A stretch of DNA of 21,742 nt, from positions 1 through 21,742 of the IMG/VR virus record IMGVR_UViG_3300021335_002125; one strand, 5' to 3'. The notes under the pieces were generated by a model. The model ran no database searches and had not been told where the DNA came from. It worked only from the letters and a program-made list of their open reading frames with translations. Positions 13,225 to 21,742 of this stretch are shown piece by piece. Position numbers and translations under genes: made by a program. Position 1 is the first letter of the stretch. Each line of letters opens with the position of its first letter. Origin of the DNA: a virus.

Positions 13225-13434
13225 TTATTTTTTATTTATTCCAAACTTACTAAATTTATACCAAATTCTTTCATGGAAAAAATATAATACCATTTTAGTA
13301 ACTACTTCAACACCCCCAATTGCTAATCCCCATCTCCAATTACCTGTGATTAACCATGAAACTATCATAGTATCTAAAGTACCTATAATTCTCCATGATA
13401 TTGTTTTAGCAATATGTCTTTTATAACTTACCAT
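13225..13434 (-). CDS. DUF2061-type small membrane protein, 69 aa
   Basis: The sequence opens YKRHIAKTISWRIIGTLDTM and continues through two hydrophobic segments, at about residues 10-30 (ISWRIIGTLDTMIVSWLITG) and 35-55 (WGLAIGGVEVVTKMVLYFFH), followed by HERIWYKFSKFG. The K(T/S)xSWRxxGTxDT opening and the central GGxExxTKMxLYxxHERxW are the DUF2061 signature. Function is unknown. From memory, DUF2061 occurs beside or fused to APS kinases in some bacteria, which makes its presence at the end of this operon meaningful. Its ATG overlaps the nucleotidyltransferase 3' end by 14 nt, so it is translationally coupled. I infer an inner-membrane location from the hydrophobic segments. Confidence 0.83.
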   Translation of the reverse strand: MVSYKRHIAKTISWRIIGTLDTMIVSWLITGNWRWGLAIGGVEVVTKMVLYFFHERIWYKFSKFGINKK

Positions 13435-13822
13435 CTTTTTTCATTTGATTTCTAATTGAAGTTGCTGATATATCACCAATTTCTTTTGGTGGTACATGTT
13501 CAATAATGTCATAACCTACACCTCTACCATAATTAATAGATTCAATATCTGGGATGATAGTAGGTAAAACTTTGCCCTCTTCAATAAGTTCTTTTAATTC
13601 ACCTTCTTTTACCATTTCTAGTATTTGTTCTGCTGTCCAAGGATTTTTTTCATCTGGTTTTACATCTCTAATCCCTAACCATACATTATATCCTTCTTTA
13701 AGTCTTTCATTAATTAACCATAGATGTCCTTTGTGTAAAGGTTGCCATCTACCAGCAAAAAATGAATATTTAACTTCTGTACTTGAGCTTTCTTTATCTG
13801 CTTTAGCTTTTAATTCCGCCAT
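13421..13822 (-). CDS. HxGH nucleotidyltransferase (NMN adenylyltransferase-like), 133 aa
   Basis: Residues 19-35 read YSFFAGRWQPLHKGHLW, with the HxGH nucleotide-binding motif at 30-33, and residues 118-124 are ISATSIR, the second signature of the superfamily. The form GRWQPxHxGH plus ISATxIR is closest to NMN adenylyltransferases (NadM/NadR type), but the superfamily also includes ATP sulfurylase and CTP-transferases. At 133 aa it is shorter than typical NadM (about 170 aa). The ATG lies 20 nt inside the HAD gene and the 3' end overlaps DUF2061. Since the first operon gene is APS-kinase-like, supply of an adenylylated substrate is an attractive inference, but the motif set points to NMN or a similar nucleotide. 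Fold confidence is high, substrate confidence low. Confidence 0.85.
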   Translation of the reverse strand: MAELKAKADKESSSTEVKYSFFAGRWQPLHKGHLWLINERLKEGYNVWLGIRDVKPDEKNPWTAEQILEMVKEGELKELIEEGKVLPTIIPDIESINYGRGVGYDIIEHVPPKEIGDISATSIRNQMKKDGKL

Positions 13823-14147
13823 CTCTTTCTAAATTTATTGCAATTGCCCGTTCTCCGGGTTTATTTGGATCCATATCGTTAATTAAGTAACGAGGTCCTC
13901 TTTCAATCCCCATAATTAATCTATCATAAGGAACATAATTTTCATGTAATTCTATTTCTGTGTGTGTTCTAAGATATTCAGGGCGAGCTGTTGTTAAAAT
14001 AATCATATGCCCTTCACTTACCGCCTGGTCTAAATAATCTATTGTAGATTTTATCCCTTCAGCCTTTGTAGTTTCATATGTTTCAAATTTACGATATTTA
14101 AATATAGTCCCATCTATATCTACAAAATATGTGTTTTTCTTTTCCAT
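13803..14147 (-). CDS. HAD-superfamily phosphatase, 114 aa
   Basis: Motif I is FVDIDGT with Asp10 and Asp12, motif II is LTTARP (Thr52/Thr53), and motif IV is LINDMDP (Asp91/Asp93), with Arg86 near the usual Lys position. No cap domain is inserted, so this is a minimal HAD fold. The pattern resembles small capsule-biosynthesis phosphatases (EcbF/BcbF type) and the phosphatase half of some polynucleotide kinases. It would hydrolyse a phosphate monoester. Within this operon the substrate could be a sugar phosphate or a nucleotide released by sulfotransfer, but nothing in the sequence decides this. Its ATG overlaps the APS-kinase-like stop by one base (TAATG) and its end overlaps the nucleotidyltransferase by 20 nt. 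Confidence 0.84.
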   Translation of the reverse strand: MEKKNTYFVDIDGTIFKYRKFETYETTKAEGIKSTIDYLDQAVSEGHMIILTTARPEYLRTHTEIELHENYVPYDRLIMGIERGPRYLINDMDPNKPGERAIAINLERDGGIKS

Positions 14148-14578
14148 TAAATTTGGTCTATAATTTTTTGTAATGATTCTTCAGGTGTATCGTCTGTAGT
14201 ATCTATATCGATAAAATTGTCTTGAGGGCCAATATACGCAATTGCTTTCCAATGATCACGTTCTCTTGCCTCTGATGTATGAACATAAATTTCTTTAATA
14301 TTATCACCTAATAATACTTTAAAATCTTCTCTTTGATCTAAATAAGGTGCTACTAAAGATACTATAACATCTTCTCCCTGATTATGTAAATAATGGGCAA
14401 TGCGTTGTGCTGTTCCTACATTTTCAACTCTACCTTTAATAGAATAATCTTTATTTGAGAATAATTCTCTCATATCATCTCCATCAATTCTATAAGCATT
14501 AGGTAGGTGTTTTTCTTTAAGCAAATTTGCTAAAACTGTTTTTCCATGAGCGGGTTGTCCCGTAAACCAATATATCAT
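14147..14578 (-). CDS. cysC-like: APS kinase-like P-loop kinase (CysC-like), 143 aa
   Basis: The Walker A motif is GQPAHGKT (residues 7-14). It is followed by IDGDDMR (31-37), DYSIKGRVENV (44-54) and SLVAPYLDQRE (74-84), then IYVHTSEARERD. These line up in order with the APS kinase motifs GxxGxGKS, DGDxxR, (G)FSxxDRxENxR, SxxSPxxxxR and (E)VxVxTPxxxxxxRD. APS kinase phosphorylates APS at the 3' position to give PAPS, the donor for sulfotransferases. Two departures matter. Typical CysC is about 200 aa, and this protein lacks most of the lid with the FTGxxxPYE-type APS-binding loop. The Ser phosphorylated in E. coli CysC is Ala77. It may still act on APS or on another nucleotide. It heads the four-gene operon behind the class-2 element. 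APS kinase family: fairly sure; activity: uncertain. Confidence 0.78.
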   Translation of the reverse strand: MIYWFTGQPAHGKTVLANLLKEKHLPNAYRIDGDDMRELFSNKDYSIKGRVENVGTAQRIAHYLHNQGEDVIVSLVAPYLDQREDFKVLLGDNIKEIYVHTSEARERDHWKAIAYIGPQDNFIDIDTTDDTPEESLQKIIDQI

Positions 14579-14580
14579 AA

Positions 14581-14631
14581 TTTATAACTTTTTAGTAAGA
14601 CTAATATACAAAACTTAATTTACTTTTCCTA
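14581..14631 (-). promoter_or_regulatory. Class-2 upstream element before the APS-kinase-like gene
   Basis: The sense strand carries TAGGAAAA, then 14 nt, then GTATATTA, two bases, CTTAC and TTATAA before the ATG. The same arrangement with identical spacing lies before the GT9-like gene at 17475-17526. GTATATTA is 23 nt from the ATG, suitable for a -10-like box and a short leader. It lacks the ATATTTATAATAA late motif, so this operon may belong to a different expression class. Confidence 0.4.
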
Positions 14632-14638
14632 ATAATTT

Positions 14639-15394
14639 TTAAGGAAAATCATAACCTAAAGTAGTAAAATCTTCCCAATATGTTGTTGTTAGTAATTTTT
14701 TTAATTCCTCATCATAATATTCTATATAAGGTCGTTTTTTTTTAATTGGTCTTCCTTCATTTACTGTTGGAAAAGCTGGTAGATTTTCTCCAAATATTTC
14801 TGATAGTATAGAATTATCTTCTCGTAAGTCTTCTAACTTAAGATAAGTTATATTAGCATCTATATTATTCCAAAAACATTGTGGGATGTAAAATTGAAAA
14901 TAATTAAACCCTGCTGTTTTAAAAAATGAATGGGGGTGATTCTTTAAGTATTTTCTGTAGAATTTGGTATCTTTATATCTAAAAAATTCAGGTGTTGTAG
15001 GGTAATGTGAAACTAAGGGTAAAGTTAATTTCATAGCATCTACAAAGTTAAGCCCTTCAAGTGGTCTTCTTACTCTTTTAATATGTTTAGGATTTCTAAT
15101 TCTTCTTCTTGGGGGACGATTTTTTCTAGTTTCATGTTGTTGATCAATAAATAAATAAGAAGATACTAATCTATTAAGAGGGTTTCTGCAAATTTGGTAA
15201 ACTTTATAATCTTGTAAATTTTCTCCATTTTTTTCCAACACAGAATTATCTACTCCTAGTAGACTATGTCTCCCCCTATCAGTAGTTAGGGGGTCATCAA
15301 ATAAAGATGTATTATCTTTAATTAATCTAACAAAAGAAGAAGTACCACACTTTGGAGGTAAAAGAAAAATGGTCTTTTTAGAAGGAAATATCAT
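14639..15394 (-). CDS. Sulfotransferase (carbohydrate sulfotransferase type), 251 aa
   Basis: The 5'-phosphosulfate-binding loop is LPPKCGTSS at residues 12-20, and the 3'-phosphate-binding motif is CRNPLNRLVSSY, with Arg70 and Ser78 at the standard eight-residue spacing. The form PPKCGTSS plus RNPxxRxxSSY is that of the Sulfotransfer_2-type carbohydrate sulfotransferases. A strongly basic insert lies at about residues 92-112 (ENRRPPRRRIRNPKHIK-like stretch), possibly binding an anionic acceptor. It transfers sulfate from PAPS to a hydroxyl, probably on a glycan. It is cytosolic, with no signal peptide. It is the last sulfotransferase before the APS-kinase-like operon, and a hairpin fills the gap just ahead of its ATG. 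Confidence 0.85.
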   Translation of the reverse strand: MIFPSKKTIFLLPPKCGTSSFVRLIKDNTSLFDDPLTTDRGRHSLLGVDNSVLEKNGENLQDYKVYQICRNPLNRLVSSYLFIDQQHETRKNRPPRRRIRNPKHIKRVRRPLEGLNFVDAMKLTLPLVSHYPTTPEFFRYKDTKFYRKYLKNHPHSFFKTAGFNYFQFYIPQCFWNNIDANITYLKLEDLREDNSILSEIFGENLPAFPTVNEGRPIKKKRPYIEYYDEELKKLLTTTYWEDFTTLGYDFP

Positions 15395-15416
15395 AAAAAT
15401 ACATTTAGGTATTTTT
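15395..15416 (-). other. Perfect inverted repeat abutting a sulfotransferase start codon
   Basis: The minus strand reads AAAAATAC-CTAAAT-GTATTTTT and the ATG of the sulfotransferase follows with no gap. The 8-bp arms are perfect but mostly A-T. The repeat fills nearly all of the 24-nt space after the preceding 103-aa gene. It could weaken initiation or act as a poor terminator with its T-run inside the arm; in such AT-rich DNA chance is also possible. Confidence 0.4.
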
Positions 15417-15418
15417 AA

Positions 15419-15730
15419 TTAATCCCAAGGAGTACCTCTTTTTGTAGTTCTTGCAGCTTGTCTTACAATAGCTTGTGCAATAGAAGCAGAGTTAGAAGTT
15501 TCAATAGAAGATTTATCTACATTACTATGTACCCATTCTAAAACTTTTTCTTCAGTAAGACTATCAAAAGCTATAAAACCTGAGTCACTTGCTGATCCTG
15601 ATAATGTAATATCACCAATTTGTCTAGTTCCAGATTGTTCATGAGCAGATTCACATGCATAGGTCACTTCAATTACTACACCATCAGCAATGTTTCTTTT
15701 AAGGTCGTATATTTTCCAAGTATGTTGCAT
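15419..15730 (-). CDS. Small marine-phage protein, paralogue of the 105-aa protein (DUF7936-like), 103 aa
   Basis: The protein has an opening strand (TWKIYDLKR), an acidic/Ser middle with SGSASDSGFIAFDSLTEEKV, a conserved helix VLEWVHSNVD, then SASIAQAI and the C-terminal GTPWD. It shares this whole plan with the 105-aa protein at 17524-17841. I recall this fold plan (FxxLTExxVxxWV, IxxxxAxIAxQ, PW end) from cyanophage and other marine phage proteins now grouped as a DUF. The function is not known. Its promoter-like 13-mer is perfect, so it is probably made late with the virion proteins. It sits between two sulfotransferase genes. Confidence 0.8.
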   Translation of the reverse strand: MQHTWKIYDLKRNIADGVVIEVTYACESAHEQSGTRQIGDITLSGSASDSGFIAFDSLTEEKVLEWVHSNVDKSSIETSNSASIAQAIVRQAARTTKRGTPWD

Positions 15731-15747
15731 TTTATATAAATTATAAT

Positions 15748-15760
15748 TTATTATAAATAT
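15748..15760 (-). promoter_or_regulatory. Late-promoter-like 13-mer before the 103-aa gene
   Basis: A perfect sense-strand copy of ATATTTATAATAA. TATAAT ends 19 nt before the ATG at 15730, in the gap after the sulfotransferase stop. Confidence 0.5.
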
Positions 15761-15774
15761 GATAAAATTTTATT

Positions 15775-16596
15775 CTAATTAATTTTATATTTAAAATATT
15801 CGTAAAACCAAGGGTAAGTATTAATTATATTCTGTGATAGTTGTTCACCTAAATATTCATTATATATTTCAGGAACAGGTTTAATTTCTTTACGAATTGT
15901 ATGGTCTCCAAAAATACCATGTACTGTATCATCTTCTTGGGTTACTTGTTTTATATTTTGGAAATCATGTTTATATCTATCCAATTCAAAAAAATCATAT
16001 ATTTTATCTAATTCTCTTTGAGGATATAAAGTTAGATCTTCAAACCGAATAAATAAAATATTTTTATCTATTCCTTCATCCATCATTTGTTTTAGTCTTT
16101 CTAGAGCGATACCAACTGGAGGGGATTGTGCCCAAAAATCAACTCTTTTAGATGTTGTAGTATTTTTTAATTCAGCCCAATTTACTATACCACTATCTTT
16201 ATCTTGGTTTTTTCTAAAATTTTTTTCCATAGAAGCATAGATAGATCTTAAATCTCTAACCATACAAACTATTTTAGGGTTTGGGTAAAATAAATTTAAC
16301 CAGTCATAATGGATTCCCCATCCTCTAGATTTATCCATTATATATTTTTTATCTGTGATACCATTAAAAAATCCTTCCATCCCATGACGACAAAAACTAA
16401 GCCATCCTTTTTTCATTAGTTCAGGATCTTGAGCTGTAAAACCAGCATCCGAGGTATAATTTTGACGAGCAGCAAATAAAAGTTCTAATACCCCAGAAGT
16501 AGGGGTTACATAAAAATCAGGATTTTGTCCTAAAATATTTTGTAATAATGTACTACCTGCTCTAGGTAAAGAAGATTGAAAGAATATTTTTTCCAT
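15775..16596 (-). CDS. Sulfotransferase, 273 aa
   Basis: The N-terminus FFQSSLPRAGSTLLQNIL contains the PAPS 5'-phosphosulfate loop (LPRAGST, residues 10-16). The 3'-phosphate motif is CMVRDLRSIYASM, with Arg114 and Ser122 at the standard spacing. A second conserved element, IRFEDLTLYPQRELDKIYDF, around residue 185, is the (Y)EDLxxxPxxxLxxIxxFL block of the family. This is a general Sulfotransfer-type enzyme using PAPS; the acceptor is unknown, and tyrosine-protein or glycan targets are both possible. The ATG overlaps the GT9-like stop (TAATG), so it is translated with that glycosyltransferase, suggesting that the sugar added by one is sulfated by the other. Confidence 0.88.
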   Translation of the reverse strand: MEKIFFQSSLPRAGSTLLQNILGQNPDFYVTPTSGVLELLFAARQNYTSDAGFTAQDPELMKKGWLSFCRHGMEGFFNGITDKKYIMDKSRGWGIHYDWLNLFYPNPKIVCMVRDLRSIYASMEKNFRKNQDKDSGIVNWAELKNTTTSKRVDFWAQSPPVGIALERLKQMMDEGIDKNILFIRFEDLTLYPQRELDKIYDFFELDRYKHDFQNIKQVTQEDDTVHGIFGDHTIRKEIKPVPEIYNEYLGEQLSQNIINTYPWFYEYFKYKIN

Positions 16597-17474
16597 TATT
16601 GGTTATTTATAGATTCTATAATTTTATTTGTATCAAATATATCAGTTAAATCATTATAAGGTACATTATGAATGCTTTCTGATAACCCAAAAGGTTGATA
16701 TTGTGCATTTTGATAATTAGGTTCTTTTGTAAAAGGATTCGCCTTTATATTATCATGTAATTTGTAACCAAATACTTCGGGATTTGTGCTTATCCAACAT
16801 ACTGTAGATTTTAAATCTAGTGATGCTGCTAAATGTTGTCCAAAACTGTCTATTAGTAATCTTTTATTTGATAGTTGTAATAATATAGCAATACTTCTAT
16901 AATTATCTAAAGCCTGCATTGTATCAGGGTATATTTTTTGGTCTTCTCTTTTAATATGAATAATTGTGTAATCGTTTTTATAATGTTCGATTAATTCTAA
17001 AATAGTAGGTTCTGGGATATCTCTTGTCCAAGCATATTGATATGGTAACCCTGCTGGTCCCCCATTTGGTTGGATTGCTAATATAGGTTTATCTGTATTA
17101 TAATAGGGTGCAAAATAATCAATTTCTGGTTGGGTTAGGTATATTTGGGGTTGTTCTCCATTATACCTTAAACCAAATAATTCACACCATGTTTTAAGTA
17201 ATAATTTAGGTTTATCTAAAATAAAATCACTATGTCTATAGGGATCTTCTACAAATATTTTACAATCCTGATCTTTTATAAATTTTAAATAAAAGCCATT
17301 TGTGTTATCAAAATGATAAACTTCATTAATGTAAGGATTATTTAAAAAAACATCAGTATGAGCTGTTACTATTATAATATTAGCATTTTTATAACGTTTT
17401 CTTATAACTTTAGTCATAGCAGTTGCTAATATACTTTTACCTAGACCTCCGTCTATTTGAAATATAATATTCAT
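16596..17474 (-). CDS. GT9/heptosyltransferase-like glycosyltransferase, 292 aa
   Basis: The N-terminus NIIFQIDGGLGKSILATAMTK begins a Rossmann-like domain, followed by IIIVTAHTDVFLNNPYINEV, the pattern of ADP-heptose:LPS heptosyltransferases and related GT9 proteins. The second domain has LAIQPNGG (residues about 131-138), then HIKREDQ, and a C-terminal LLIDSFGQHLAASLDLKSTV with CWISTNPEVFGY, corresponding to the donor-binding (S)xxxHxAxAxxxxxVxLFG(s) block. I recall this branch as common in marine phages. It probably adds a sugar to a lipopolysaccharide-like or virion glycan. It is behind the class-2 element and is translationally coupled to the 273-aa sulfotransferase. The donor sugar is unknown. 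Confidence 0.77.
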   Translation of the reverse strand: MNIIFQIDGGLGKSILATAMTKVIRKRYKNANIIIVTAHTDVFLNNPYINEVYHFDNTNGFYLKFIKDQDCKIFVEDPYRHSDFILDKPKLLLKTWCELFGLRYNGEQPQIYLTQPEIDYFAPYYNTDKPILAIQPNGGPAGLPYQYAWTRDIPEPTILELIEHYKNDYTIIHIKREDQKIYPDTMQALDNYRSIAILLQLSNKRLLIDSFGQHLAASLDLKSTVCWISTNPEVFGYKLHDNIKANPFTKEPNYQNAQYQPFGLSESIHNVPYNDLTDIFDTNKIIESINNQ

Positions 17475-17526
17475 TTATAACATTTTATAATAAGGTTAAT
17501 ATACATAACTAATTTAAATTTTCCTA
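17475..17526 (-). promoter_or_regulatory. Class-2 upstream element before the GT9-like gene
   Basis: The sense strand reads TAGGAAAA, 14 nt, GTATATTA, two bases, CTTATTATAAAA and TTATAA before the ATG, matching the element at 14581-14631 in parts and spacing. The first TAG is also the stop codon of the 105-aa gene. GTATATTA ends 22 nt from the ATG. Confidence 0.4.
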
Positions 17527-17841
17527 GTTATCCCAAGGAACACCTGTTTTTTTTATTATTTGATTACTTGAAGAAAATTCAATTTGTGCTATAGAAGCAG
17601 AATTTTGCACTTCAATAGCTGGGATATCTATTGAAGATGTTATCCACCCTAAAACTACATCTTCTGTAAGATTTTCAAAAGAAATAAAACCTTCATCTGT
17701 AGAAGAACCTGTTATAGCTAAAGTAGAAGTATATCTTTCTGTGTGATTATTATGATTTGATTCTAAACCATACATTATTGAGTTTACTACTCCATCTGAT
17801 TCTACTCTTTGGAGGCTATAAATTTTTAAAATATGTTCCAT
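17524..17841 (-). CDS. Small marine-phage protein, paralogue of the 103-aa protein (DUF7936-like), 105 aa
   Basis: It aligns over its full length with the 103-aa protein: LKIYSLQR, then GSSTDEGFISFENLTEDVVL, GWITSSIDIPAIEVQNSASI, AQ, and the C-terminal GVPWDN. Conservation is visible at DNA level too, for example around the TCCCAAGGA and ATAGAAGCAGA stretches on the plus strand. No enzymatic motif is present. It has a perfect late-promoter-like 13-mer directly at the preceding stop codon. It lies upstream of the GT9-sulfotransferase pair, just as its paralogue lies downstream. Function unknown. Confidence 0.8.
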   Translation of the reverse strand: MEHILKIYSLQRVESDGVVNSIMYGLESNHNNHTERYTSTLAITGSSTDEGFISFENLTEDVVLGWITSSIDIPAIEVQNSASIAQIEFSSSNQIIKKTGVPWDN

Positions 17842-17851
17842 TTAATTTACT

Positions 17852-17864
17852 TTATTATAAATAT
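17852..17864 (-). promoter_or_regulatory. Late-promoter-like 13-mer before the 105-aa gene
   Basis: A perfect sense-strand copy of ATATTTATAATAA, starting at the last A-T of the GT-A stop codon region (GGATAATATTTATAATAAA). TATAAT ends 12 nt before the ATG at 17841. Confidence 0.5.
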
Positions 17865-18571
17865 TATCCAATTCCATCCCAATTTATTTTTTCTGGAGAT
17901 AAATGAATGCAATGAGTATTTAAAGATATTACTTGATAGAATAATTGTTTAAAAACATAATCATCTGTACCTGCATTATTTGACATAGTAGGATATACTT
18001 GGTATAAATTTTTATATACTTTTTTTAGTGCTTTTAAATTAAATAATTGAAAATACCCCCATCCTAACCATTGTTGAATTATTTGACTTTTATTTTTAAA
18101 TACTTCTTTAAAATTAATAACATCAAGATCTTCATCTCCATTAAGATTAATTCTACCCATTGTATATAAATAAAGAGCAACAGGTGCTTCTCCTATTTGG
18201 TGTTTATGAGTTATAATTCTTTGTAAATATGTATGTCTTAATTTACCCGTAATATGAGTAGAGGTAAAGGTTGATGGGAAGTCATCGTTTAATAAAACAT
18301 CGGCATCTATATGACAATACCATTCTTCATCTTTACCCATATAGTCAAAACCTTCATTTATAGCTGCCCCCTTATTAAAAGTTCTTTCATATATTTTTTT
18401 AGATAAAATATATTCTAAATCATTATCTTTACAAAGTTTAATTGTATCTTCATCATCTTCATGAGTTACAATAACCCATCTTTTAAAAAATCTTCTATTT
18501 GAAATACAATACTTTAAGTAATGGGAATAGTTTATACAAACTGTAACTGCATTTATTTCTATTGGAACCAT
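17864..18571 (-). CDS. GT-A fold glycosyltransferase, 235 aa
   Basis: The N-terminus INAVTVCINYSHYLKYCISN followed by RWVIVTHEDDEDTIKLC is the first strand-helix unit of GT-A enzymes. FNKGAAINEGFDYM (about residues 65-78) and YCHIDADVLL, with the metal-binding DxD at Asp89-Asp91, are the donor-site motifs. The C-terminal part has LGWGYFQLFN and a GTDDYVF(K) acidic block, then CIHLSPEKINW, resembling the catalytic-base and closing region of galactosyltransferase-like GT2/GT7 enzymes. It is a cytosolic enzyme using a nucleotide sugar and Mn or Mg. It stands between a sulfotransferase (26 nt upstream) and the 105-aa gene. Donor and acceptor are unknown. Confidence 0.84.
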   Translation of the reverse strand: MVPIEINAVTVCINYSHYLKYCISNRRFFKRWVIVTHEDDEDTIKLCKDNDLEYILSKKIYERTFNKGAAINEGFDYMGKDEEWYCHIDADVLLNDDFPSTFTSTHITGKLRHTYLQRIITHKHQIGEAPVALYLYTMGRINLNGDEDLDVINFKEVFKNKSQIIQQWLGWGYFQLFNLKALKKVYKNLYQVYPTMSNNAGTDDYVFKQLFYQVISLNTHCIHLSPEKINWDGIG

Positions 18572-18596
18572 AAATTATAACTAATTATAATAATTT

Positions 18597-19433
18597 TTAA
18601 GAATAATCGTACCAAGTACTATAATCTAAGTGTGGATATAAATCCTTTATAGCTGCTACATCATCTCTAAACATTGGTTTTAGATAATTTACAGTTGATG
18701 TTTCTATTTCACTAGAATAATCACCTACAAATATTTTATCAAACCCCTGAGATGGATCAAAGGGTGATACTCCTAAAAAAGTACATATTTTATTATATTC
18801 AGTTAATGGGTTAGCAGCAATACTTTCTTGCAATGTTACATAAATTTTATCTGAACCTATATCCGTTAACCAAGTAGATAAATTATCTTTATATAAACTT
18901 CTTTGAAATATATTTGTTCCAAAATAATATCTAGAAACAGTATCAAAAGATTTATTATAAGCATAAGAACCCCAAGTTGGATTTTTAGTCTGAATATGGT
19001 TAAAGTGACTATAAGCTCTTCTAATTGGATCCCTTAATAAAATAATGATTTTAGCATTTGGTAAATCTGATGCTATACGAGATGATGCACCCCCATTTAA
19101 AGATTCATCTAAACCAAAATAATTAGGAGATGATTCACCTCTTGCTGTTAAACGTCTTGGAAAAAATGATTTATATATGTCAAATGATCCAGTTAAGTTA
19201 TAATTAGTATCTAAATTAAAGTAATCCATTTCTTTATTACCTTTTTCTTTCATACTACCAGCCCAAGAGCCTGTTTGAGCAGAATAATTATATTGATCAC
19301 TACTTAATATTTTATCTTTCCAAAAAGTAGTAACCATGTATATTTCAGAATGCTTATTAAGATTAAAAGCAGCCGCAGTTGTACCTGCTTTCATTACTCC
19401 TGCTACAATAAAATTTGGTTCGTGTGATTTCAT
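18597..19433 (-). CDS. Sulfotransferase (heparan-sulfate sulfotransferase-like), 278 aa
   Basis: The N-terminus NFIVAGVMKAGTTAAAFNLN has the PAPS loop MKAGTT at residues 14-19. ARGESSPNYF (about 97-106) corresponds to the K(Y)GEkSPxYF block of heparan N- and 3-O-sulfotransferases. IILLRDPIRRAYSHFNH gives the 3'-phosphate motif with Arg134 and Ser142 at standard spacing. The C-terminal half contains YVTLQESIAANPLTEYNKIC, the (l)YEDLxxdPxxxxxxIxxFLG equivalent. This is a different subfamily from the other two sulfotransferases here. It starts 18 nt after the stop of the cysteine-rich repeat protein, so it is likely co-transcribed with it, and the acceptor could be that protein or a glycan on it. 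Confidence 0.88.
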   Translation of the reverse strand: MKSHEPNFIVAGVMKAGTTAAAFNLNKHSEIYMVTTFWKDKILSSDQYNYSAQTGSWAGSMKEKGNKEMDYFNLDTNYNLTGSFDIYKSFFPRRLTARGESSPNYFGLDESLNGGASSRIASDLPNAKIIILLRDPIRRAYSHFNHIQTKNPTWGSYAYNKSFDTVSRYYFGTNIFQRSLYKDNLSTWLTDIGSDKIYVTLQESIAANPLTEYNKICTFLGVSPFDPSQGFDKIFVGDYSSEIETSTVNYLKPMFRDDVAAIKDLYPHLDYSTWYDYS

Positions 19434-19451
19434 ATTTATAAATATATAAAG

Positions 19452-21742
19452 CTATTTTTTATATTTCAAATTATTTTTGTAATTAGTTATTTCTCCTTCA
19501 TTTTTCAATGTTTCAACTCCTTTCCATATTTTAATAGCATCTTTATCTTTTCTAGTTGCAACAACTAATACGTTATATTTACCAGGGTCTGAAGTTGTAA
19601 TTTTTACTTTAGTGGCACTTAAATTTACTATACCAAATGCTTTACCTAAGCTATCCATTGGGTTAACCCATACTTGAGAATTTTCATTTAAATATCTATA
19701 ATATTCAGGTAATATAATTTCACCTTCTAGATCTTCTCCTATTTCAACTTCAAATCTATATAAGTTATCTCCAGCAGTTGGTGATTCAACGAAACTATGA
19801 TGTAAATTATGTGTAGCTGATTTACATGGATTAGGATGATCAATTTTAAATGAGCCACCTGCTTTAGTTAATGAACCAAATGCACAAACATTACACATAA
19901 AAGTAGTGTTACATGCTGTACTATTTTTACCATATGTTCCTAATATAGCACTATAGGAATGGTTACAACATATTTGGTTATTATATCCAGCTATTAAAGT
20001 ATAGAAAGCACAAGATTTATTATTCCCACCAAATATTGCACCTGCAAACATTTCATTAGCAGTAGTTCCACCACCAGCATTGTTACCACATCCTGCTATA
20101 ATATTATATTTACTTTGACAACAAAAATTGTTGTTTTGACCAAATCCTGCATTATAACATATACAATTGTCTCCACATCCAATTCGGATATCACATCCAA
20201 ATGCTACGTTGTAACAAACATCATCACCACAAATAACATTCTGACATCCTCCTAAAATAGAATTCCATTTACCACCACCTAGCATTACATTTTCAGTACC
20301 CCCTAAAATATTGTTAAATTCTGGAAGCGTTGATGTAGAACAGATACGATTATTTCTACCCCCAACAATATTACTATTATGACCTCTACAAACTATGTTA
20401 CTATAACCAGCCCCTATAAAGTTTCTAGTAGAATTACAACATATTCTGTTATAAACGCCCGCTCCAATAAAATTTCCTGATTGGTAAGTAGTAGAACTTA
20501 AAGCACAACCCGTTATAATATTATTTGCCCCACCAGAAATTATACTAGCTTCATCACATGATATTCGGTTAAATGCACCACCAACTATCGTGTTAAATCT
20601 TCCACATGCAGCACAGGTGCATATTTTATTACTATCACCACCCACTATAGTATTAGCATTAGATGTTTGCCAAGGTGCTGCAGAATTATTTTGTTTTACA
20701 CAAATAAAGTTACTAGCTCCCCCTAATATTGAGTTAAATGAGGAATTACCATTACTATCTGCTATACAATTACTAAAACCTCCACCTATAACATTATGTT
20801 TACTTACATTTCCATTTTTATGTAAATAACCATTAGTACTTAGAGCTAAGCTATAAATCCTATTAAACTTACCTCCTCCAATATTAGAACCATGTTGATA
20901 ACAATAAATACAGTTAAAAGACCCACCTGCAATAGTCATATTTCCATCAAAAGATCCTGACCCTGCACATATTTTATTGCAATGGCCACCTAAAATTGAA
21001 CTATTTGTAGCTTTAAAGTTTGCATTAGCGGTATTACTTTGTATTGTGTTTTGACATCCTGCAAGAATTGATGAATTATTTGAACAGTTTTCTATGATAC
21101 TTCCGGTACCCGCACCTATAAATGCGTGATGTGCCTTTATAGTATTACAACAACCAGCTCCAATAAAGTTTTGGTTAGAACCACTAATGCAATTCTTAAA
21201 TCCACCTGCAATTATATTTTGGTATAAACCATTAGTAGAATAACCCCCACTTGTACCTGCATGTATTTTATTACATCTCCCAGCTAGAATTGCATTACCG
21301 CCAGCACCGTAAGGATAACCATTACTTATGCTATTACAACACCCACCTCCTATAAAAGAAAAATAACCATTATAACTAGTAGCAATACAATTAAAACGTC
21401 CTGTGACTATTCCACCTGCATTAACATTATAAATGCAATTATTACATCCCGCTCCCATAAAATTACCACTACCAAAGTAAGCACTATTTAATCTTCCCCC
21501 TCCAATAAATGTCCAACTTTGGTAATTAGATATAGAATTTGTACAACCTCCTACTATAGAATTTTGATAATAACCTGCTACAGTATTTGATTGTCCTCCT
21601 ACTATAACATGGTCTGATCCATTTGAAATATGGTTATTATGTCCTCCTCCTATAAAAGAAATTGAACCTTGCAGACAATTACAAAATCCTCCAACTATAG
21701 AAGAAATTGCTCTAGATACTATATTATTACATCCCCCTCCGA
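19452..21742 (-). CDS. Cysteine-rich glycine-repeat fibre/adhesin-like protein, 5'-truncated by window edge
   Basis: The reading frame is open from the window edge to a TAG at 19452, so the visible 763 codons are the C-terminal part; an internal Met at 21458 is not the start. About 34 imperfect repeats run to near residue 620, with core (I/V)(G/A)G(G/A)xxNxI spaced 12-25 residues apart. This suggests a beta-roll or beta-solenoid, as in trimeric adhesin heads. About 40 cysteines lie mostly just after GG or after N in the repeats. The C-terminal 140 residues hold a domain beginning GGSFKIDHPNP, followed by HHSFVESP and IILPEYY, which I recall at the ends of phage and bacterial fibre-like proteins. 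No S74 peptidase is visible after it. I infer a receptor-binding or decoration fibre. The downstream sulfotransferase is 18 nt away. Confidence 0.75.
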   Translation of the reverse strand, partial: GGGCNNIVSRAISSIVGGFCNCLQGSISFIGGGHNNHISNGSDHVIVGGQSNTVAGYYQNSIVGGCTNSISNYQSWTFIGGGRLNSAYFGSGNFMGAGCNNCIYNVNAGGIVTGRFNCIATSYNGYFSFIGGGCCNSISNGYPYGAGGNAILAGRCNKIHAGTSGGYSTNGLYQNIIAGGFKNCISGSNQNFIGAGCCNTIKAHHAFIGAGTGSIIENCSNNSSILAGCQNTIQSNTANANFKATNSSILGGHCNKICAGSGSFDGNMTIAGGSFNCIYCYQHGSNIGGGKFNRIYSLALSTNGYLHKNGNVSKHNVIGGGFSNCIADSNGNSSFNSILGGASNFICVKQNNSAAPWQTSNANTIVGGDSNKICTCAACGRFNTIVGGAFNRISCDEASIISGGANNIITGCALSSTTYQSGNFIGAGVYNRICCNSTRNFIGAGYSNIVCRGHNSNIVGGRNNRICSTSTLPEFNNILGGTENVMLGGGKWNSILGGCQNVICGDDVCYNVAFGCDIRIGCGDNCICYNAGFGQNNNFCCQSKYNIIAGCGNNAGGGTTANEMFAGAIFGGNNKSCAFYTLIAGYNNQICCNHSYSAILGTYGKNSTACNTTFMCNVCAFGSLTKAGGSFKIDHPNPCKSATHNLHHSFVESPTAGDNLYRFEVEIGEDLEGEIILPEYYRYLNENSQVWVNPMDSLGKAFGIVNLSATKVKITTSDPGKYNVLVVATRKDKDAIKIWKGVETLKNEGEITNYKNNLKYKK

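Follow-up and report, generated by a model that had tools for sequence, protein, structure and literature searches.

Gene content between the fibre and sheath genes

The IMG/VR virus record IMGVR_UViG_3300021335_002125, 21,742 nucleotides (21.7 kb) analysed at full length and here called the window, belongs to a T4-like phage. At positions 13225-19433 it contains a gene cassette, discussed here as a putative sulfation pathway, which lies entirely on the minus strand between the gene of a Cys/Asn-rich repeat protein, probably a fibre, and the sheath, tube and baseplate genes on the other side. The cassette encodes three sulfotransferases (ST3a, ST3b and ST2), two probable glycosyltransferases, a CysC-like kinase (KIN), a HAD phosphatase, a nucleotidyltransferase (NT), a DUF2061 protein and two DUF7936 proteins. 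An open reading frame (ORF) check placed all genes at the coordinates given in a preliminary description of the sequence, in which NT was overlooked. The kinase had there been placed in an operon, and the genes of KIN, the small HAD phosphatase, NT and DUF2061 do overlap or touch.

The sister contig IMGVR_UViG_3300047375_001000 has an identical gene order throughout, which shows that the cassette is not an accident of assembly. When comparing sheath proteins, the closest cultured relative was a Flavobacterium phage (51% identity), so the host is perhaps a member of the Bacteroidota; no such enzymes are annotated between fibre and sheath in that phage. A DNA search with the whole region against phages gave no matches, and scans for promoters and terminators gave a signal no higher than in shuffled sequence.

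KIN (14147..14578) matches the APS_kinase profile PF01583 at 57.1 bits (cut-off 21.1), and all 50 of the listed PDB fold matches to its model (pLDDT, predicted local distance difference test, 93; best E 6e-8) are adenosine 5'-phosphosulfate (APS) kinases or proteins containing that domain. An alignment of 54 sequences revealed that the P-loop and DGDxxR...R..N residues G12, K13, D32, G33, D34, R37, R50 and N53 are invariant. On the other hand, KIN reaches 55.5 bits on the NCBIfam apsK model TIGR00455, where the equivalog cut-off is 138.7, and its score on the broader PRK05541 subfamily is just as high. The term CysC-like used in the preliminary description is therefore borne out by profile and fold but not at the level of the equivalog. 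Motifs and fold suggest APS as the substrate of KIN and 3'-phosphoadenosine 5'-phosphosulfate (PAPS) as its product.

NT (13421..13822, 133 aa) is a nucleotidyltransferase of the HIGH superfamily and in the Pfam scan matched CTP_transf_like (PF01467, 25.9 bits) only, with no match to Sat (PF01747). Both the HxGH and the ISxTxxR motif are present, residues H30, G32, H33, S119, T121 and R124 being invariant in 44 sequences, and a distinctive GRGVGY stretch is almost invariant among its relatives. The model (pLDDT 83) has a fold like that of nicotinamide mononucleotide adenylyltransferase (NMNAT) and phosphopantetheine adenylyltransferase, the best E being about 1e-3. NT nevertheless falls below every curated NMN adenylyltransferase cut-off (best 37.1 vs 127 bits) and, when compared by eye with archaeal NMNATs, presumably lacks the stretch which these have between the PDIE motif and ISxT. 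Its genomic company leads us to propose NT as a non-canonical ATP sulfurylase, forming APS from sulfate and ATP.

All three sulfotransferases show the features of PAPS-dependent enzymes, namely a score over the Pfam cut-off, the 5'-phosphosulfate binding loop and the Arg/Ser pair of the 3'-phosphate binding site. ST3a (15775..16596) and ST3b (18597..19433) belong to Sulfotransfer_3 (PF13469, cut-off 27) with 70 and 50.4 bits, while ST2 (14639..15394), the weakest of the three, scores 25.3 bits on Sulfotransfer_2 (PF03567, cut-off 22). The profile search proposed in the preliminary description thus gave a positive result for each, and the binding residues named there were all correct: Arg114/Ser122 (R114/S122) with the loop RAGST in ST3a, Arg134/Ser142 (R134/S142) with KAGTT in ST3b, and Arg70/Ser78 (R70/S78) with KCGTSS in ST2, the loops being intact. 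The nearest solved structures to ST3b are the sulfotransferase PDB 3rnl (E 2e-11) and heparan sulfate 3-O- and N-sulfotransferases, and ST3a distantly resembles protein-tyrosine sulfotransferases (TPST1, E 8e-4); a profile search with ST2 matched no believable solved structure.

The HAD phosphatase (13803..14147) is similar to the phosphatase of PNKP, its matches to PF25109 (E 3e-4) and PF03767 (E 8e-5) both being below cut-off, and possibly removes the 3'-phosphate of 3'-phosphoadenosine 5'-phosphate (PAP). DUF2061 (13225..13434; PF09834, 88 bits) is a small membrane protein with its best plasmid matches in rhizobia. Two Mesorhizobium symbiosis plasmids carry, in this order, nodB, nodC, nodI, an ABC permease, a sulfotransferase, DUF2061, cysD and cysN/C, which is the Nod-factor sulfation set, and two Microvirga plasmids encode a CysN with DUF2061 as a C-terminal fusion partner. 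These associations suggest that DUF2061 assists sulfate activation. In Microvirga lotononidis a KIN-NT fusion (L273:1405-2217) is located beside CysD and CysN-DUF2061, and the catalytic motifs of its NT half have degenerated (HESH, VSPTAVQ), as expected, in this one case, if NT were redundant beside CysD/CysN.

Recurrence of the module in viruses

The preliminary description had also proposed that co-occurrence be checked across related phages. The arrangement KIN-(HAD)-NT-DUF2061, in which the HAD gene is optional, was found across hundreds of viral contigs, and pattern searches confirmed 370 relatives of KIN and 490 of NT. Among cultured phages there were three weak matches to KIN and two to NT, and around the matching gene in one of these, Xanthomonas phage AhaSv, no sulfation genes are annotated.

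The module is often found beside sulfotransferases. Fifty viral KIN-NT records contained 20 Sulfotransfer_3 matches, spread over 17 records, and 19 of the 20 were no more than 10 kb away from KIN or NT, 18 of these at a distance of up to 5 kb; by our estimate from record lengths, chance would place roughly one in eight there. Many of them lie about 200 bp upstream of KIN. Searching outward from ST3a, 10 of 20 loci had KIN at a distance of up to 6 kb, and three further records encoded it elsewhere. Where Pfam showed no sulfotransferase match, several records have proteins of about 200 aa with a sulfotransferase-like loop (e.g. PRTGST) adjoining KIN, and pairs of such motifs occur in 20 of 591 ORFs near the module vs none of 359 far from it (p = 8e-5). 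In L054:11155-11706 a sulfotransferase-like protein of 184 aa is encoded between NT and DUF2061. QueC was matched by 7 of 80 neighbour proteins scanned, one QueC-family gene being situated directly upstream of KIN (L059:9153-10001).

The two glycosyltransferases, described from the start as interleaved with the sulfotransferases, are present at those positions, and their assignment is plausible but weaker. The probable GT-A type gene (17864..18571) has weak Glyco_tranf_2_4 and Glyco_transf_7N matches (E 0.003-0.005), its relatives share an invariant HIDADVLL with the DAD motif, and it adjoins ST3b in all six relatives retrieved via ST3b. The tentative GT9/GT-B-like gene (16596..17474) has no Pfam match of its own; Glyco_transf_9 (PF01075) was reached by two of its nine relatives (best E 0.013), and in 17 of 20 ST3a loci the gene immediately precedes ST3a. 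Profile searches found no believable solved structure for either.

Upstream of the cassette, also on the minus strand, lies the ORF of the Cys/Asn/Gly-rich repeat protein (19452..21458; no Pfam match), a probable fibre or adhesin and a possible acceptor of sulfo groups, homologs of which occupy the same position in relatives. Two paralogous DUF7936 proteins, copy a (17524..17841; PF25590, 44 bits) and copy b (15419..15730; 72 bits), each adjoin glycosyltransferase or sulfotransferase genes. In relatives, homologs precede the GT9-like gene, and cyanophages and roseophages have homologs as well.

The nucleotidyltransferase in cellular genomes

Eighty cellular NT loci were retrieved when bacterial and archaeal genomes were searched by profile. 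Sixteen of these encode a fusion of NT with a CysC-type kinase domain, NT coming first in eight and the kinase in the other eight, and a further 43 have such a kinase within 300 bp (59 of 80 fused or near). Four fused kinase domains were tested and all pass the apsK cut-off (159-203 vs 138.7 bits). The lidless form of KIN adjoins NT in Marinimicrobia and marine group III archaea as well.

When analysing 46 genomes with NT, Sat was identified in five and CysD of any strength in eight, of which six were convincing; as CysN counts are inflated by cross-matches to elongation factors, only matches over or near the cut-off were counted. Twenty-three of the NT genomes encode an apsK over the cut-off, and 14 of these have neither Sat nor a convincing CysD/CysN (two show CysD matches at 26-29 bits only). 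Each of these 14 has its APS kinase either as a fusion with NT or within 1 kb of it, and 12 of the 14 encode Sulfotransfer_3 proteins.

This was also seen within one bacterial family, where 63 of 121 genomes contain an APS kinase: CysD is present in all 61 of those that lack NT, whereas neither of the two with NT has it (Fisher p about 5e-4, our own arithmetic). NT is rare in both the class and the family of genome G023, as class-wide and family-wide scans revealed, and the replacement test therefore rests on two NT genomes within the family plus others outside it. In genomes with an APS kinase NT appears to take the place of Sat or CysD/CysN, apart from nine exceptions that have both.

Genomes of Pelagibacteraceae (SAR11; L196-L237) commonly carry NT together with a divergent KIN, although SAR11 is regarded as lacking sulfate assimilation. 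Genes whose starts resemble S-adenosylmethionine synthetase and S-adenosylhomocysteinase adjoin KIN-NT or CysC-NT in one marine archaeon and one genome of the Bacteroidota (L167:8434-10339, L180:9409-13008).

A proposed sulfation pathway, its alternatives and known systems

On balance we favour the view that the cassette makes PAPS by means of NT and KIN for use by its own sulfotransferases. NT would adenylylate sulfate (ATP + sulfate -> APS + pyrophosphate) and KIN would phosphorylate the 3'-OH of APS to give PAPS, with DUF2061 helping sulfate activation at the membrane and the HAD phosphatase perhaps clearing the by-product PAP. The three sulfotransferases would then sulfate either a protein or a glycan assembled by the GT-A and GT9-like enzymes, the fibre or some other virion component being the most probable site. 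Gene content, folds, motifs, conservation and co-occurrence are established computationally, whereas the substrates of NT and KIN, which are proposed from comparative genomics, the roles of DUF2061 and the HAD phosphatase and the acceptor are inferred. A kinase alone does not make a complete pathway. The possible complete sulfation pathway first suggested for this region is supported as far as donor-making and sulfotransferase genes beside a fibre gene are concerned, with a candidate ATP sulfurylase now found in the same operon, and its completeness depends on the activity proposed for NT.

A wider proposal, to which we give even chances, is that NT represents a minimal ATP sulfurylase of a third class, which shares no relationship with CysD/CysN and does not belong to the Sat family. 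Paired with CysC-type kinases it would make up the PAPS synthases of marine phages, SAR11, Marinimicrobia, marine archaea, Bacteroidota and Omnitrophota, and phages would employ it to sulfate their own virions.

Several observations weigh against these proposals. KIN is without the lid (KGLYKKARAGE...FTGID), about 20 residues being absent in the alignment with E. coli CysC, and for this reason it is not a typical CysC. NT is closest to NMN adenylyltransferase in both sequence and fold, and unlike Sat. The exceptions to the replacement are 9 of the 23 genomes with apsK and NT, in which a canonical ATP sulfurylase, or CysN at a minimum, is encoded as well, and in two Nitrospiraceae NT has no kinase nearby. 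Many of the cellular genomes were assembled from single cells or metagenomes and are incomplete, so that absences are soft; this weakens single absences but not the pattern across related genomes. Many viral KIN-NT loci show no recognisable sulfotransferase nearby, and some have QueC, a cytidylyltransferase or polysaccharide genes instead. Of the viral records lacking Sulfotransfer_3, counter-examples at first sight, several carry the divergent sulfotransferase-like proteins and others none.

The missing lid, the failure of KIN to reach the equivalog cut-off and its tie with PRK05541 would also fit a pathway in which some other 3'-phosphorylated nucleotide donor is the product of KIN and NT, and the putative sulfotransferases transfer another group. 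In the Campylobacter phosphoramidate pathway the APS-kinase homolog Cj1415 phosphorylates CDP-phosphoramidate, and the superfamily of NT includes cytidylyltransferases. We consider this unlikely, since full-length APS kinases that pass the equivalog cut-off occur as fusions with homologs of NT, the sulfotransferases retain their PAPS-binding loops and DUF2061 is linked to CysD/CysN. More doubtful still is an ordinary auxiliary metabolic gene which boosts assimilatory sulfate reduction in the host for cysteine and methionine: viral cysC is usually reported as such (PMC9529941), but here sulfotransferases cluster beside KIN-NT, the Pfam scan revealed neither CysH nor any other sulfur-reduction gene in the cassette, and the cassette is situated among structural genes. 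NAD salvage or nucleic-acid repair was considered as well, with NT acting like an NMNAT, KIN and the HAD protein like the kinase and phosphatase of PNKP, and all three beside the sulfotransferases by chance. The nearest families of NT are indeed NMNATs and those of the HAD protein include the PNKP phosphatase; nevertheless the APS-kinase fold matches listed for KIN, the fusion of NT to CysC in cells, the NMNAT cut-offs which NT fails to reach and the lack of NAMPT or PnuC among the neighbour-family matches listed make it highly improbable.

Even if sulfation through NT and KIN is accepted, the target may differ. The host surface and the virion had both been suggested at the outset, and the embedding of the block among structural genes favours the virion; this target, proposed from gene position, we hold with less confidence than the supply of PAPS itself. 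A host envelope modified by the same chemistry, as a superinfection block or a change of receptor, is a possible but less probable target: in other phages glycosyltransferase and polysaccharide genes (NeuB, pyruvyl transferase, carbamoyltransferase) adjoin KIN-NT, and ST3b resembles glycan sulfotransferases, while both here and in close relatives the genes lie between fibre and sheath, on the same strand, within the structural block. This position suggests late expression.

In the open-access literature searched we found neither phage sulfotransferases nor a non-canonical ATP sulfurylase described, which is not proof of novelty. The genes known as cysC in marine viruses have been interpreted as serving assimilatory sulfate reduction (PMC9529941), whereas KIN, which is probably what viral surveys call cysC, stands in a sulfation setting, and viral cysC genes labelled as sulfur-assimilation genes may often belong to such sulfation modules. 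If the proposal is true, it would explain cysC in many viral genomes and reveal that abundant marine microbes and phages activate sulfate by a route so far unrecognised, and phage-encoded sulfation would be directly testable. The cyanophages S-SKS1, S-SRM01 and S-SCSM1 share homologs of ST3a with this phage (~30% identity), but searches with KIN and NT gave no match in them.

Two-step PAPS synthesis as proposed here is known from PAPS synthetases, in which ATP sulfurylase and APS kinase are fused; NT and KIN are neighbours in the phage and fused in cellular relatives, but the phage enzyme is NMNAT-like and gave no Sat match in the Pfam scan. In Xanthomonas (raxST with raxP and raxQ), and likewise in rhizobia, ATP sulfurylase and APS kinase feed a dedicated sulfotransferase (PMC4216712). 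The rax system shares this supply of PAPS with the proposed phage cassette; it is, however, bacterial, uses canonical enzymes and is thought to act on a secreted peptide. The rhizobial Nod-factor cassette (nodH/nodPQ; Roche et al. 1991, as cited in PMC4216712) is likewise a mobile and self-contained unit for glycan sulfation, with a sulfotransferase, PAPS-making genes and DUF2061. It uses CysD/CysN and a lidded CysC, where the phage has NT, a lidless KIN, three sulfotransferases and the HAD phosphatase among virion genes, and if NT is an ATP sulfurylase the two cassettes would be parallel gene for gene.

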